From assembly GCF_000349845.1 (NCBI RefSeq), contig NC_020829.1:1674001-1738000 (forward strand): a DNA stretch of 64,000 bases, in the 5' to 3' direction. Under the pieces are notes generated by a model that saw only the letters and a program-made list of their open reading frames with translations, was not told where the DNA came from and did no database searches. Positions 54,845-58,319 of the stretch are shown here, piece by piece. The DNA is from Pseudomonas sp. ATCC 13867 (GTDB lineage Bacteria > Pseudomonadota > Gammaproteobacteria > Pseudomonadales > Pseudomonadaceae). Position numbers and translations under genes: made by a program. The stretch's first letter is position 1. Every line of letters begins with the position of its first letter.

Positions 54845-55384
54845 ATGAGCATGTCGTTACGTGACCAGTTGCTGAAAGCCGGACTGGTCAGTGAGAAACA
54901 GGCCAAACAGGCCGGCAAGCAGAAGCAGAAGCAGCAGCGTCTGGAGCACAAGAACCAGGTGCAGAAGGATGACAGCCAGCGTCAGGCCGCCTTGCAGGCG
55001 CAGGCCGACAAGCAGGCCCGCGATGCCGAGCTGAATCGCCAGCAGCAGGAAAAGGCCGAGAAGAAGGCCAGGACCGCGCAGATCAAGCAACTGATCGAAG
55101 GCACCCGTCTGCCGAAGCTGGAAACCGAGGACTATTACAACTTCGTCGATGCGAAGAAGGTCAAGCGCATTGCGGTGAACGACCTGATCCGCGACAAGCT
55201 CAGTCGCGGCAGCCTGGCCATCGTCAGCTACGACGGCCGCTACGAGATCGTCCCGCGTGACGCCGCGCTGCGCATCAAGGAGCGCGACGAGCGGCGTATC
55301 GTGCTGCTCAACGAGCCCAGCGGCGAGCCGGACGAGGACGACCCGTACAAGGATTACGTGGTGCCCGACGACCTCATGTGGTGA
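54845..55384 (+). CDS. DUF2058 protein
   Basis: A 179-residue cytoplasmic protein. Residues 1-85 are very rich in Lys, Gln and Ala and probably coiled-coil (KQAKQAGKQKQKQQRLEHK and following). The C-terminal part (YNFVDAKKVKRIAVNDLIRDKLSRG, then DPYKDYVVPDDLMW) is the conserved DUF2058 signature. E. coli YaiL is a member; it may associate with nucleic acid or ribosomes, but function is unknown. The start is MSMSLRDQLLKAG. It is divergent from lpxO. Confidence 0.85.
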   Translation: MSMSLRDQLLKAGLVSEKQAKQAGKQKQKQQRLEHKNQVQKDDSQRQAALQAQADKQARDAELNRQQQEKAEKKARTAQIKQLIEGTRLPKLETEDYYNFVDAKKVKRIAVNDLIRDKLSRGSLAIVSYDGRYEIVPRDAALRIKERDERRIVLLNEPSGEPDEDDPYKDYVVPDDLMW

Positions 55385-55402
55385 GGCCGTCCCGGTCGGA
55401 CC

Positions 55403-55693
55403 TCAGGCCGGATTCAGCACCACCCTTGCGAAGCGCGCCTCCGCCGCCTGCGGCGTGATGGCGTGCAGACGGTCCAGCCGGAGCTCCCGGCTGGCATCGT
55501 CCACCCGGACTTCCAGGAACTCCTCCACGACCCCGTCCGCGTTTCGCCGCGTGTGCGTGGTGAAGGCCTGGGCGTCGAACGCCAGGCCGTCACGCAGCTC
55601 GATACGCAGCCAGTAGCGGTGCAGGCAGGCGATCTCCAGGTAGTCGTGCAGATCGCAGTGCAGCGGCTGGTAGGCGTCCATGCCGTTCAGCAT
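55403..55693 (-). CDS. Rof-family Rho-binding antiterminator-like protein
   Basis: A 96-residue protein with the Rof/YaeO pattern: YQPLHCDLHDYLEIACLHRYWL at the N-terminus, a beta-strand-rich middle (IELRDGLAFDAQA) and EFLEVRVDDASRELRLDRLHAITP. E. coli Rof binds Rho and inhibits termination. The start could be 55693, overlapping the DUF2024 stop by seven bases, or the ATG four codons later. It is the last gene of a three-gene operon. Confidence 0.75.
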   Translation of the reverse strand: MLNGMDAYQPLHCDLHDYLEIACLHRYWLRIELRDGLAFDAQAFTTHTRRNADGVVEEFLEVRVDDASRELRLDRLHAITPQAAEARFARVVLNPA

Positions 55694-55941
55694 CCTTCCA
55701 TCTCGATGACGTAGTAGCCCTGGCGGCGCAGCGCCTCTTCCACCGGGGGCGTGGAAAACTCGCTGTGGCAGAACTCGCAGCGGCTCATGTGCACGTCATG
55801 CGCCTGGATGCCGCGCGCCGCCAGCCAGTGCGCGGCGAACTCCGCGGCACGGCTGGCGGCGTCCGGCCCGACCAGGACGTCGAAGTGCAGGTAGCGGCCA
55901 TCGTGGGTACGCACATGGGTGTCGTAGACGCGAACCTGCAT
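55687..55941 (-). CDS. DUF2024 protein
   Basis: An 84-residue protein with the DUF2024 pattern: MQVRVYDTHVRTHDGRYLHFDVLV, then a helix and SRCEFCHSEFSTPPVEEALRRQGYYVIEMEGC. The CxxCH motif near residue 55 and a terminal Cys may bind metal or be redox-active. Function unknown. AAGGGGCTCGCC precedes the ATG. It lies ten bases after the thioredoxin-like gene. Confidence 0.82.
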   Translation of the reverse strand: MQVRVYDTHVRTHDGRYLHFDVLVGPDAASRAAEFAAHWLAARGIQAHDVHMSRCEFCHSEFSTPPVEEALRRQGYYVIEMEGC

Positions 55942-55951
55942 GGCGAGCCCC

Positions 55952-56176
55952 TTACTTCAGGTCGGCGATGGCGGCGCCGAAGTTCAGGTGCAGCACCTGG
56001 CCATCGACCACCAGGGCGGGCACCGATTTGACCCCGGCGGCCTCGGCCTCGGCGATGCGCGGCGCCTGCTCGCCCAGGTGCACCACTTCCACATCCCGGT
56101 TCAGCAACGGCAGCAGCGTGCGTTCGGCCTCGACGCAGACGGCGCAACCGGCATGGTAATAGATGGCTTTGCTCAT
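55952..56176 (-). CDS. Small thioredoxin/glutaredoxin-fold protein
   Basis: A 74-residue single-domain thioredoxin-fold protein with a CAVC active site at Cys11-Cys14 (YYHAGCAVCVEAERT) and the cis-proline region SVPALVVDGQVLHLNFG. It is shorter than glutaredoxin (about 85). It should act as a cytoplasmic disulfide reductase or redox relay. AGGAGAAGGATC precedes the ATG. It is the first gene of the operon with DUF2024 and the Rof-like gene, divergent from a MarR regulator. Confidence 0.83.
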   Translation of the reverse strand: MSKAIYYHAGCAVCVEAERTLLPLLNRDVEVVHLGEQAPRIAEAEAAGVKSVPALVVDGQVLHLNFGAAIADLK

Positions 56177-56198
56177 GATCCTTCTCCTGATTGATTAA

Positions 56199-56277
56199 GT
56201 ATCGAATCGATACAATATCAGTCTGCAAGCGAAAAGAGCCTTCTGTCAAACTGGTTTTTGATCGATACTATCTATCG
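56199..56277. promoter_or_regulatory. Twin operators between the thioredoxin-like and MarR genes
   Basis: GTATCG-N3-CGATAC (56199-56213) and CGATA-N5-TATCG (56263-56277) are two dyads sharing the CGATA core. One lies just upstream of the thioredoxin-like gene and the other immediately before the MarR ribosome site. This arrangement suggests autorepression and joint control by the MarR protein. Confidence 0.6.
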
Positions 56278-56290
56278 GGAGGATGAGCCC

Positions 56291-56860
56291 ATGACCGATA
56301 CGACCCTGTACGACTATCTTGAGCGCATTGCCAGCCTGATGCGCGCCTGGGCCCGCGAGCAGCCGCTGATGGCGGATCTGCAGCCGATCCAGCTGAGTGC
56401 GCTGAACTACCTGGCGCGCTGCAACCGCTATTCGAACACGCCATTGGCGGTCACGGACTTCCTCGGGCTGACCAAAGGCACGGTGTCGCAGTCGCTGAAA
56501 GCGCTGGAGGCCAAGGGGCTGATTCGCAAGCGCCCGGATGCGCAGGACCGACGCAGCGTGCACCTGGAACTGACGGACGCGGGGCAAGGACTGATCGAGG
56601 CGCTGGTGCCGCCGGCGTTCCTGAGTCGCGCCGAAGAGGCTTTGGGCGAGCGCCGCGAACTGCTGGTCGCGCTGCTGCGCGAGCTGTTGACCAGCATCCA
56701 GCGCCAGGAGGATGTGCCGGGCTTCGGCCTGTGCCGCACCTGCCGTTTCCACCAGAAGCGGGACGACGGCGCGCTCTGCGGGCTGACCGGGGAGCGGCTG
56801 GAAACGCGCGAAGGAGAGCTGGTCTGCCGCGAGCACTCAGAGCCCGGCGAAGCCGCCTGA
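56291..56860 (+). CDS. MarR-family regulator with C-terminal cysteine cluster
   Basis: A 189-residue MarR-type repressor. The winged helix-turn-helix covers about 35-105 (PLAVTDFLGLTKGTVSQSLKALE, and DRRSVHLELTDAG in the wing). A non-standard extension after residue 140 carries Cys148, Cys151, Cys163 and Cys179 (CRTC, ALCG, LVCREH), which could bind zinc or an iron-sulfur cluster or form disulfides. The start MTDTTLYDYL has GGAGG eight bases upstream. It is divergent from a thioredoxin-like operon, which suggests redox or metal sensing. Confidence 0.85.
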   Translation: MTDTTLYDYLERIASLMRAWAREQPLMADLQPIQLSALNYLARCNRYSNTPLAVTDFLGLTKGTVSQSLKALEAKGLIRKRPDAQDRRSVHLELTDAGQGLIEALVPPAFLSRAEEALGERRELLVALLRELLTSIQRQEDVPGFGLCRTCRFHQKRDDGALCGLTGERLETREGELVCREHSEPGEAA

Positions 56861-56888
56861 ACCGGGCTGCACGGCGCCGTTGATCTTC

Positions 56889-56981
56889 GTAGGAGCGAGC
56901 TTGCTCGCGAACCGCTTGACGCCGTTGTCAGGGGGACGCTTTGTTCGCGAGCAAGGGTTGGGAGCCCCCTTCGCTCCTACA
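56889..56981. repeat. REP pair with an altered second copy
   Basis: A normal REP is at 56889-56911. The inverted partner (56944-56981) starts TTCGCGAGCAAG and ends CGCTCCTACA, but has an additional GGTTGGGAGCCCCCTT in the middle. Confidence 0.85.
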
Positions 56982-56992
56982 AAAAAGCCACC

Positions 56993-57028
56993 CATGAAAA
57001 AGCCGGGCAGATGCCCGGCTTTTTCATG
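56993..57028. terminator. Bidirectional terminator between the MarR gene and fadL
   Basis: A perfect 17-base stem (56993-57009 with 57012-57028) with A-run and T-run on its two arms, serving converging genes. Confidence 0.92.
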
Positions 57029-57044
57029 TCCGCAGGTGGCGCTA

Positions 57045-58319
57045 TCAGAAGCGATAGGTCATCTGTGCGGTCAGGCCGTGAGCGCTGTTGTCGTACTTGG
57101 CGCTGTAGGCCGGCTGCAGGGCGCTGCCTTCCAGGTTGACGCTAGCGGTGTCTTCCCACAGGTAGGCGTAGGCCATGTCGACGGTCAGGTCCGGGGTCGG
57201 CGACCAGCCGGCACCGAAGGTGACGATCTGGCGATCGCCCACCGGGATGCGCACGCTGCGGTAGTCGTTGTCGGTCGGCGACGGGTCGTAGGCGTAACCG
57301 GCACGCAGTACCCACTCCTGGTTCAACTGGTAGGAGGCGCCTACCGAGGCGGACCAGGTGTCATGCCACTTCAGGTCTTCGCCGATGGTGCCGAAGCCGA
57401 GGGCCTGACCCAGCGCCGGTACGCCGCTGTTTTCCACTTCGATCTTTTCCAGGCGGCTCCAGCGGGTCCATACCGCGCCGATGTAGCCAGTCCACTGGTC
57501 GTTGAACTTGTGGGTGATGGAGGTATCCACCGACTCCGGCAGGGTGATGTCCAGCTTGGCGTCGTAGGAGCCGTTCAGGCCCAGGGCGCCGGGGGCGTTC
57601 TTGACCTTGGTGCGGCCGTCCAGGTGATAGTCGACCTTGGAGTGGTAGGTCAGGCCCCAGGCGGTGTCGTCGGTCACGTCGACCAGTACGCCGATGTTGT
57701 AGCCCACCGCGGTGTCGTCACCCTTGATGTCGATGTGGGTGTCGCCCTGGCCGCCGGCCAGGCCGTTGGTGGCCAGGTCGTTCTTCAGCTGGCCGTCGAT
57801 ACGGTTGATGGTCGGGCCGAAACCGACGGAAACCTTATCGTTGACCTTGTAGGCGATGGTCGGCTGCAGGGTGATGACCTGGACCTTGCTGTAGGAACCG
57901 TGGTAGCTGCCCTGGAAGCCGTTCTCATAGTCGTTGATGATGCCGTAGGGGACGTACATGCCGAAGCCGAAGGTGAAGTCCTCGTTGATCGGCGTGGAGA
58001 TGTAGCCGAACGGCACGGCGGCCAGGGGCACGGAATCGCCCTTGTTGGAGCCCGGATGCGGGCTGTTGGCCTGGCTGATGTCGTCCTTGGCATCGACAAT
58101 GGCGAGACCGCCGCTGATTTCGGTGCGCTTGAGTTTGGACAGACCGGCCGGGTTGCCGTAAATGGTGCTGGCGTCGAGCGCGGAGGAAGCGCGGCCTGCG
58201 TAGGCAGTACCGGCGCCGCTGGCGCTCTGCTCGTTGATAGCGATGCCGTTGGCCAGGGCCTGGGCAGAGGCGGCGCTAATGGTCAGTGCGAGCGTGGTCT
58301 TGAGCCATGTTGTTTTCAT
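57045..58319 (-). CDS. fadL: FadL/OmpP1-family outer-membrane transporter
   Basis: A 424-residue outer-membrane beta-barrel for uptake of long-chain fatty acids or other hydrophobic compounds. The signal peptide ends near residue 23 (AQALA). The family N-terminal hatch NGIAINEQSASGAGTAYAGRA and YGNPAGLSKL (NPA motif) are clear, and the protein ends in MTYRF, the barrel-assembly signal. AGGAG lies 11 bases before the ATG. The position matches P. aeruginosa PA1288 (from memory). Confidence 0.92.
   Translation of the reverse strand: MKTTWLKTTLALTISAASAQALANGIAINEQSASGAGTAYAGRASSALDASTIYGNPAGLSKLKRTEISGGLAIVDAKDDISQANSPHPGSNKGDSVPLAAVPFGYISTPINEDFTFGFGMYVPYGIINDYENGFQGSYHGSYSKVQVITLQPTIAYKVNDKVSVGFGPTINRIDGQLKNDLATNGLAGGQGDTHIDIKGDDTAVGYNIGVLVDVTDDTAWGLTYHSKVDYHLDGRTKVKNAPGALGLNGSYDAKLDITLPESVDTSITHKFNDQWTGYIGAVWTRWSRLEKIEVENSGVPALGQALGFGTIGEDLKWHDTWSASVGASYQLNQEWVLRAGYAYDPSPTDNDYRSVRIPVGDRQIVTFGAGWSPTPDLTVDMAYAYLWEDTASVNLEGSALQPAYSAKYDNSAHGLTAQMTYRF

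Follow-up and report, generated by a model that had tools for sequence, protein, structure and literature searches.

Redox-sensing repressors of the MarR family, such as OhrR and MexR, are winged-helix proteins with palindromic operators in divergent promoters and with redox-related targets. OhrR-type proteins carry a reactive cysteine near the N-terminus, which is Cys15 in Bacillus subtilis OhrR. Rof (YaeO) of E. coli is an inhibitor of Rho, as described in passages of two papers (PMC11018626, PMC11018607); passages of the first of these also report that in published structures Rof touches Rho through its first helix, that the Y13A and D14A substitutions abolish Rho binding, that E17A is mild and E17K removes toxicity, that C10S roughly halves the lag effect, and that Rof is restricted to Pseudomonadota (PMC11018626). 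The E. coli MOSC protein YiiM is associated with resistance to N-hydroxylaminopurine. Solved structures represent a family of small thioredoxin-like proteins (2k8s) and the DUF2024 family (2hfq), both entries presumably originating from Nitrosomonas europaea, and no operon or regulation for either protein was found in the open-access full-text literature.

A divergent locus and its occurrence

In the window, which is the whole stretch of 64,000 nucleotides of Pseudomonas sp. ATCC 13867 that was analysed, a MarR gene for which we coin the name MarR4C is divergent from genes for a thioredoxin-fold protein, a DUF2024 protein and a Rof-like protein (Table 1). The four genes and their orientation had been proposed in a preliminary description, and reading frames and Pfam agree with it; profile and structure matches likewise bear out its identification of a Rho-antiterminator-like protein, a DUF2024 protein with a CxxCH motif and a 74-residue thioredoxin-fold protein with a CAVC active site. 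The rof and DUF2024 reading frames overlap by 7 bp. The window genome is a single contig of 5.70 Mb with one Rof match only, and homologues close to the window proteins are, where named, mainly from Pseudomonas. A terminator scan found no intrinsic terminator in the 18 bp between the end of the Rof gene and the convergent DUF2058 gene (55385-55402), and the thioredoxin-DUF2024-Rof operon may end by Rho-dependent termination. Between the MarR4C and FadL-like genes (56885-56985), a repeat pair consisting of GTAGGAGCGAGCTTGCTCGCGAA and an imperfect inverse was seen by eye; we take it to resemble Pseudomonas REP elements.

Table 1. Positions of the genes and likely regulatory sites, in window coordinates unless a contig is named
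Feature	Position	Strand	Length or motif	Basis or remark
Rof-like (Rho-off) gene	55403..55693	-	96 aa	Pfam ROF, 85.2 bits (cut-off 27.6)
DUF2024 gene	55687..55941	-	84 aa, CxFCHxE	Pfam PF09630, 99.7 bits (cut-off 27)
Thioredoxin-fold gene	55952..56176	-	74 aa, CAVC active site	Match to 2k8s, E 2.3e-24
O2, likely operator	56199..56213		GTATCGAATCGATAC	7+1+7 palindrome near the presumed thioredoxin transcript start
Possible -10 box	56220..56225	-	CAGACT	Presumed from position in upstream regions
Likely -35 box of the thioredoxin-DUF2024-Rof promoter	56244..56249	-	TTGACA	Spacing from O1
O1, likely operator	56254..56268		GTTTTTGATCGATAC	One perfect and one diverged arm
MarR4C gene	56291..56860	+	189 aa	Pfam MarR_2, 49.6 bits (cut-off 27)
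Four-cysteine tail of MarR4C	56723..56836	+	CxxC-x11-C-x15-C-x-E-H	Residues 145-182
Second operator pair of the window genome	L169, G000:C1:3218001-3223000			Between the MOSC/YiiM-family gene and the 79-aa gene

Genome contigs scanned with the thioredoxin alignment yielded at least 578 confirmed stretches, of which the best 80 (L006-L085) were kept, so that the set of loci leans to near relatives; loci were picked by the thioredoxin alone and reach at most 5 kb to each side of it. Among these best 80 of at least 578 loci, a MarR-family gene is present in 57, DUF2024 in 28, MarR and DUF2024 jointly in 26, and Rof in 17, including one (L053) under the Pfam cut-off. The DUF2024 count is taken from neighbour clusters, which left out L001, L002, L004 and L005; counting by family models gives 22/80, owing to competition between overlapping models and to spurious N-terminal sequence in the Rof model. 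By lineage, as judged from record titles and again within the best 80 of at least 578, MarR is found in 23 of 35 loci of Gammaproteobacteria, 22 of 23 of Bacteroidota, 5 of 5 of Alphaproteobacteria, 2 of 4 of Bacillota, 2 of 2 of Dadabacteria, 0 of 2 of Betaproteobacteria and 3 of 9 others.

Among 249 genomes of the phylum drawn independently, 22 were listed at E 0.001; the 10 above 100 bits count as strong thioredoxins, and the 12 at 21.8-29.2 bits were dropped. Five of the 10 come from outside Pseudomonadaceae, and each of these has a match to the MarR model in the 3.2-kb region examined (L092-L096). Four genomes of this draw carry DUF2024 above the cut-off, three of them with the thioredoxin about 1 kb away or nearer, and genome G206 has DUF2024 without a thioredoxin match; in one genome of the order draw (G049) DUF2024 lies 3 kb from the thioredoxin. 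Across 89 Pseudomonadaceae genomes the thioredoxin occurs in 20, DUF2024 in nine and Rof above the cut-off in 29. All nine DUF2024 copies are less than 1 kb from the thioredoxin, and Rof lies within 1.3 kb of it in 19 of the 20 thioredoxin genomes, the exception being G397. Presence of DUF2024 (p 2.6e-7) and of Rof (Fisher p 3e-11, leaving out G387, where Rof is under the cut-off) follows that of the thioredoxin, with Rof above the cut-off in 10 of the 69 genomes that have no thioredoxin; eight thioredoxin genomes have a second Rof elsewhere.

These linkage counts rule out chance neighbours. They also rule out a fixed four-gene unit, DUF2024 and Rof being optional: 11 of the 20 Pseudomonadaceae thioredoxin genomes have Rof without DUF2024 (G094, G170, G240, G348, G355, G362, G382, G390, G406, G411 and G418), and in the best 80 of at least 578 loci Rof is missing from 63 and DUF2024 from 52, so that neither belongs to the core, which consists of MarR4C and the thioredoxin. 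The preliminary description had offered linkage in other genomes as a check on a four-protein unit. Linkage elsewhere is borne out by the retention of MarR in most of the best 80 loci, and the unit survives as a MarR/thioredoxin core to which DUF2024 and Rof are optional additions.

The tail of MarR4C and the companion proteins

MarR4C shares its winged helix with the redox-sensing MarR repressors, and like them it has a divergent promoter, palindromic operators (here predicted) and redox-related targets. Unlike the OhrR and MexR type it ends in a conserved four-cysteine tail, and unlike OhrR systems its operon is without an Ohr gene. The reactive N-terminal cysteine of OhrR-type proteins is absent from window MarR4C, which has no cysteine before residue 44, and the NCBIfam OhrR equivalog model scores 25.1 bits against a cut-off of 200. 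C44 itself is ruled out as a sensor, since only 23 of 58 sequences carry it. The extra tail cysteines to which the preliminary description had drawn attention (C148, C151, C163 and C179) are invariant in 58 of 58 aligned MarRs, an alignment made up of 57 loci and the window protein without L003, whose MarR is cut by the locus end, and obtained with a search model that spanned the tail and thereby favoured tail-bearing matches. Overall identity to window MarR4C goes down to 20-25% (53-row alignment). In the AlphaFold2 model of MarR4C (pLDDT 89.9) the tail is predicted to be ordered, with blocks of pLDDT 81-89 over residues 141-180, strands at 154-157, 160-163 and 168-170 and a helix at 172-176. 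The tail has no Pfam or NCBIfam match, and the fold-search rows for the model span residues 1-142.

The window thioredoxin reaches 23.7 bits against Pfam Thioredoxin_3, narrowly under the cut-off of 24.8, and belongs to the same family as the solved 2k8s (entitled 'Thioredoxin'); in the best 80 of at least 578 loci its relatives retain CxxC in all 80 and SVPAL, which we take to be the cis-proline motif, in 77. The DUF2024 protein is likewise of the family of solved 2hfq (E 1.2e-19), and CxxCH is present in all 31 clustered copies, with xE directly after it in 30. A further companion, the cl7 family of predicted secreted proteins of about 245 aa, is found in 14 of the best 80 of at least 578 loci, where it adjoins the thioredoxin (for example L015:5242-5979 and L062:5288-6004, plus 12 other loci). 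HPDFDD and WHxHW are invariant in cl7, which is without a Pfam or PDB sequence match and whose model (pLDDT 70.1) has its best PDB structure match at E 0.013.

Likely operators and regulon

The two likely operators bracket the elements of a predicted promoter; O1 is placed ahead of the -35 box, and in the window 22 bp separate it from the MarR4C ATG. In 40 upstream regions from Pseudomonas, Citrobacter and Serratia, which include repeats of one genome (L001/L090, and L009/L119 with identical sequence), the distance from O1 to O2, taken from the best match per region, is 54-58 bp throughout (55 in 26, 54 in 10), and TTGACA starts 19 bp past the O1 start in 38. The possible -10 box reads TAGCCT, TAACCT and similar in relatives; a strict promoter scan of 55300-57050 returned no promoter because the -10 is weak. 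With O2 just past the likely -10 and O1 just before the -35, the placement of these predicted sites is the layout of a repressor.

Related sites recur as two operator types. Within the best 80 of at least 578 loci, 33 thioredoxin genes are preceded by class I (GTATCGANTCGATAC, at most three mismatches) and 31 by class II (AGTTAGGANTCCTAACT, at most four mismatches), where mononucleotide shuffles of the 80 upstream regions lead one to expect 0.3 and 0.56 matches; in random 150-bp windows from the same loci, which can in some cases cover a true operator site, class I matches 30 and class II 24 times in 3200. Class II is mainly found in Bacteroidota and Alphaproteobacteria, and in most Bacteroidota it abuts TATATTTG, which we take to be the -7 element of that group. 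The 57 MarR loci among the best 80 of at least 578 include 24 with class I, 28 with class II and four with neither type at the thresholds used. A single split of the MarR tree, with support of 0.999, parts the class I from the class II sets, and the recognition helix has Gln67 in all class I MarRs and Asp67 in 96% of class II. The tree used 28 of the 31 class II matches, since L023 and L039 are also class I and L030 is borderline at four mismatches; the loci that were in neither class in this analysis (L024, L030, L041, L042 and L060) fall on the class II side. Because the class II set includes Alphaproteobacteria and one gammaproteobacterium (L028), the split does not reflect taxonomy alone. 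The twin CGATA dyads, read in the preliminary description as one closed circuit, are thus above chance, conserved and covary with the regulator, and on these sequence grounds MarR4C and O1/O2 very probably form such a circuit. Neither the operator letters nor a MarR4C regulon that spans several phyla and has two types of operator was found described in the open-access full-text literature.

Nine MarR-less loci in the best 80 of at least 578 retain class I matches. The MarR-less L018 shares its assembly with the MarR-bearing L020, which makes regulation in trans likely. Six loci of Methylococcaceae type (L022, L025, L029, L032, L055 and L079), where genes for a small protein, cl15, and a Cys-rich one, cl16, come after the thioredoxin, have class I matches with two to three mismatches and no MarR in the locus.

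The combined O1+O2 pattern matches 25 sites in 18 of the 89 Pseudomonadaceae genomes, all 18 being among the 20 that carry the thioredoxin, and the reversed control has no match in the 89. The thioredoxin accounts for sixteen of these sites; the other nine, all from genomes of the window's genus, are second sites. The five second sites that were read each have a divergent gene like the MOSC/YiiM-family gene of the window genome, in which Pfam recognises MOSC and YiiM_3-alpha domains, and four have a 79-aa gene without a Pfam match. The MarR4C regulon is therefore likely to include a second promoter, whose MOSC gene has domains in common with E. coli YiiM and, unlike it, stands under likely MarR4C operators. 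MOSC genes are also found near the module in L008, L012, L013, L020, L040 and L095, and in genome G425 an operator precedes a cl7 gene. A search with the single operator in 12 genomes of the genus gave matches in nine and none in G426, G428 and G430. In the window genome a third, one-mismatch operator at G000:C1:4063269 sits in the gap where two convergent frames end and has no O1 partner (7/14 positions differ), and it is therefore taken as chance and rejected as a real site.

The probable stress signal and Rof

The neighbours of the module suggest oxidant or electrophile stress. AhpC/TSA redoxins occur in L028 and L060, a bacterial globin in L078, a cytochrome P460 in L031 and, recognised by eye on the opposite strand less than 2 kb away, MsrB-like frames in L023 and L043, and MOSC genes recur. 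In nine of the best 80 of at least 578 loci an HxlR gene neighbours the thioredoxin, and in seven MarR-less loci it is divergent and adjacent to it (L043-L045, L057, L063, L081 and L085); the HxlR of L081, the only one tested, has its best matches to the RrpB/RrpA redox models, under their cut-offs. From such neighbours the signal is probably thiol or electrophile stress. Loci L033, L038 and L040 have LysR-family genes close to the thioredoxin. Expression records are weak and mixed. PA0939-PA0942, which we take to be the gene set of P. aeruginosa with PA0942 as the locus tag of the MarR, appear in the excerpts of P. aeruginosa papers only in lists and tables, one of which terms PA0942 an oxidative response gene; such entries give PA0942 as 1.54-fold up on sRNA overexpression and as one of the genes down-regulated by a herbal extract. 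No report of DNA binding by the regulator or of induction of this operon was found in the open-access full-text literature.

MarR4C would bind O1 and O2 and so repress its own gene and the thioredoxin-DUF2024-Rof operon, and would also repress the second promoter, between the genes for the MOSC/YiiM-family reductase and the 79-aa protein. The four-cysteine tail may house a metal or thiol centre, for which zinc, an iron-sulfur cluster or disulfide cycling may be considered; on disruption of this centre by thiol-reactive stress, the repressor would leave the DNA. The small thioredoxin/glutaredoxin-like protein would then repair thiols and may reset the repressor, with DUF2024 as a possible metal- or thiol-binding partner, and Rof, judging from its family, would block the site at which Rho binds RNA and weaken Rho-dependent termination during stress that uncouples translation and transcription. 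On balance we favour this autoregulated switch for thiol or electrophile stress, among whose outputs would be the repair of thiols and a dedicated Rof in Pseudomonas and Citrobacter. Counting against it are the many loci that lack Rof or DUF2024, the four MarR loci with neither operator type, and the replacement in module Rofs of Tyr13, the residue whose change to alanine abolishes Rho binding in E. coli Rof.

The tail could also be a purely structural zinc site, and in one alternative, which we consider unlikely, it is such a zinc knuckle and the MarR pocket receives the signal in the form of a small organic ligand, N-oxygenated or aromatic for example, with MOSC and thioredoxin as detoxification enzymes and Rof as an accessory. 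The cytochrome P460 found in one locus, a protein type with hydroxylamine chemistry, would suit this alternative, as would the glyoxalase gene that adjoins the thioredoxin in two Serratia loci (L011 by Pfam, L014 by tblastn at 97%) and the MOSC/YiiM-family gene under the same operators, YiiM and YcbX being described in passages of two papers as reducing N-hydroxylaminopurine (PMC3831636, PMC5818509). The single replacing regulator that was tested, the HxlR of L081, however resembles redox regulators, and the invariance of the tail cysteines where identity elsewhere is 20-25% exceeds what a plain aid to folding would call for, although it is not proof.

Window Rof matches E. coli Rof (8ptm, E 2.1e-12), shares with it the Pfam family ROF and retains the Rho-contact positions as C13, D17 and E20; the equivalent C10, D14 and E17 of E. 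coli are kept in 25 of 25 module Rof rows. The position of Tyr13, in contrast, is His in all 25 rows, the window's included, and Tyr in all eight second Rofs of Pseudomonadaceae genomes. His at this position was rejected as a module signature, as seven of 23 non-module Rofs share it (L191-L194, L197, L198 and L200); one other has Ser. Whereas E. coli rof lies beside yaeP, window rof lies in the thioredoxin operon, and in Citrobacter, where three genomes have two Rofs each and both second copies read are E. coli-like, the module Rof is a copy additional to the E. coli-like one. A small tree, weak and including over-long N-terminal readings, did not place module Rofs in a single clade. The Tyr13 replacement, the score of 52.2 bits against a cut-off of 117 with the NCBIfam model of E. 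coli Rof (PRK11625) and the second Rofs of Citrobacter would all accord with a Rof that hitch-hikes, having lost its action on Rho to serve as some other Sm-like RNA- or protein-binding protein, yet we regard this as doubtful given the retained C, D and E contacts and the keeping of Rof in 19 of 20 Pseudomonadaceae operons. It is quite probable that module Rof acts on Rho.

Two further occurrences of Rof-like genes were seen. In Serratia grimesii (L176, G434:C18:35802-39023) an E. coli-like Rof and the thioredoxin are about 10 kb apart on what is, by contig number and length, a single contig; they were not counted as linked. In a Saprospiraceae metagenome bin a Rof-like gene (L053:5362-5619, 24.1 against 27.6 bits) stands between the thioredoxin and MarR, and the bin has a second Rof-like gene under the cut-off (L178); contamination of the bin is possible.

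In E. coli, according to passages of one study, rof goes up with HgCl2 and phenylmercuric acetate and is the sole riser of five termination-factor genes (PMC5769350). This response hints independently that thiol stress acts on rof; it is a stress link seen once and without this operon. It is improbable that the locus serves metal homeostasis, with MarR4C as the sensor of zinc, copper or mercury, and with the thioredoxin and DUF2024 to deal with the metal or its damage: CxxCH in DUF2024, a passage listing DUF2024 among metal-binding proteins (PMC6393860) and the induction of E. coli rof by mercurials (PMC5769350) speak for it, but no metal transporter or metallochaperone was recognised by eye among the neighbour clusters, and the model of the zinc MarR AdcR scores 18.6 bits against a cut-off of 175.

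MarR4C and its two operator types offer a handle, in several phyla, on two families that are structurally solved but have no role assigned (2k8s and DUF2024). Tentatively, and with a probability slightly short of even, this is a widespread thiol-stress regulon to which some lineages have added a dedicated Rof, in which case thiol state would directly set the strength of Rho-dependent termination. Since versions of the set recur with the likely DNA switches in distant bacteria, it can now be tested whether thiol stress is linked to termination, and because Rof lies under conserved operators amid genes suggestive of thiol chemistry, the stress that induces it can be sought directly.
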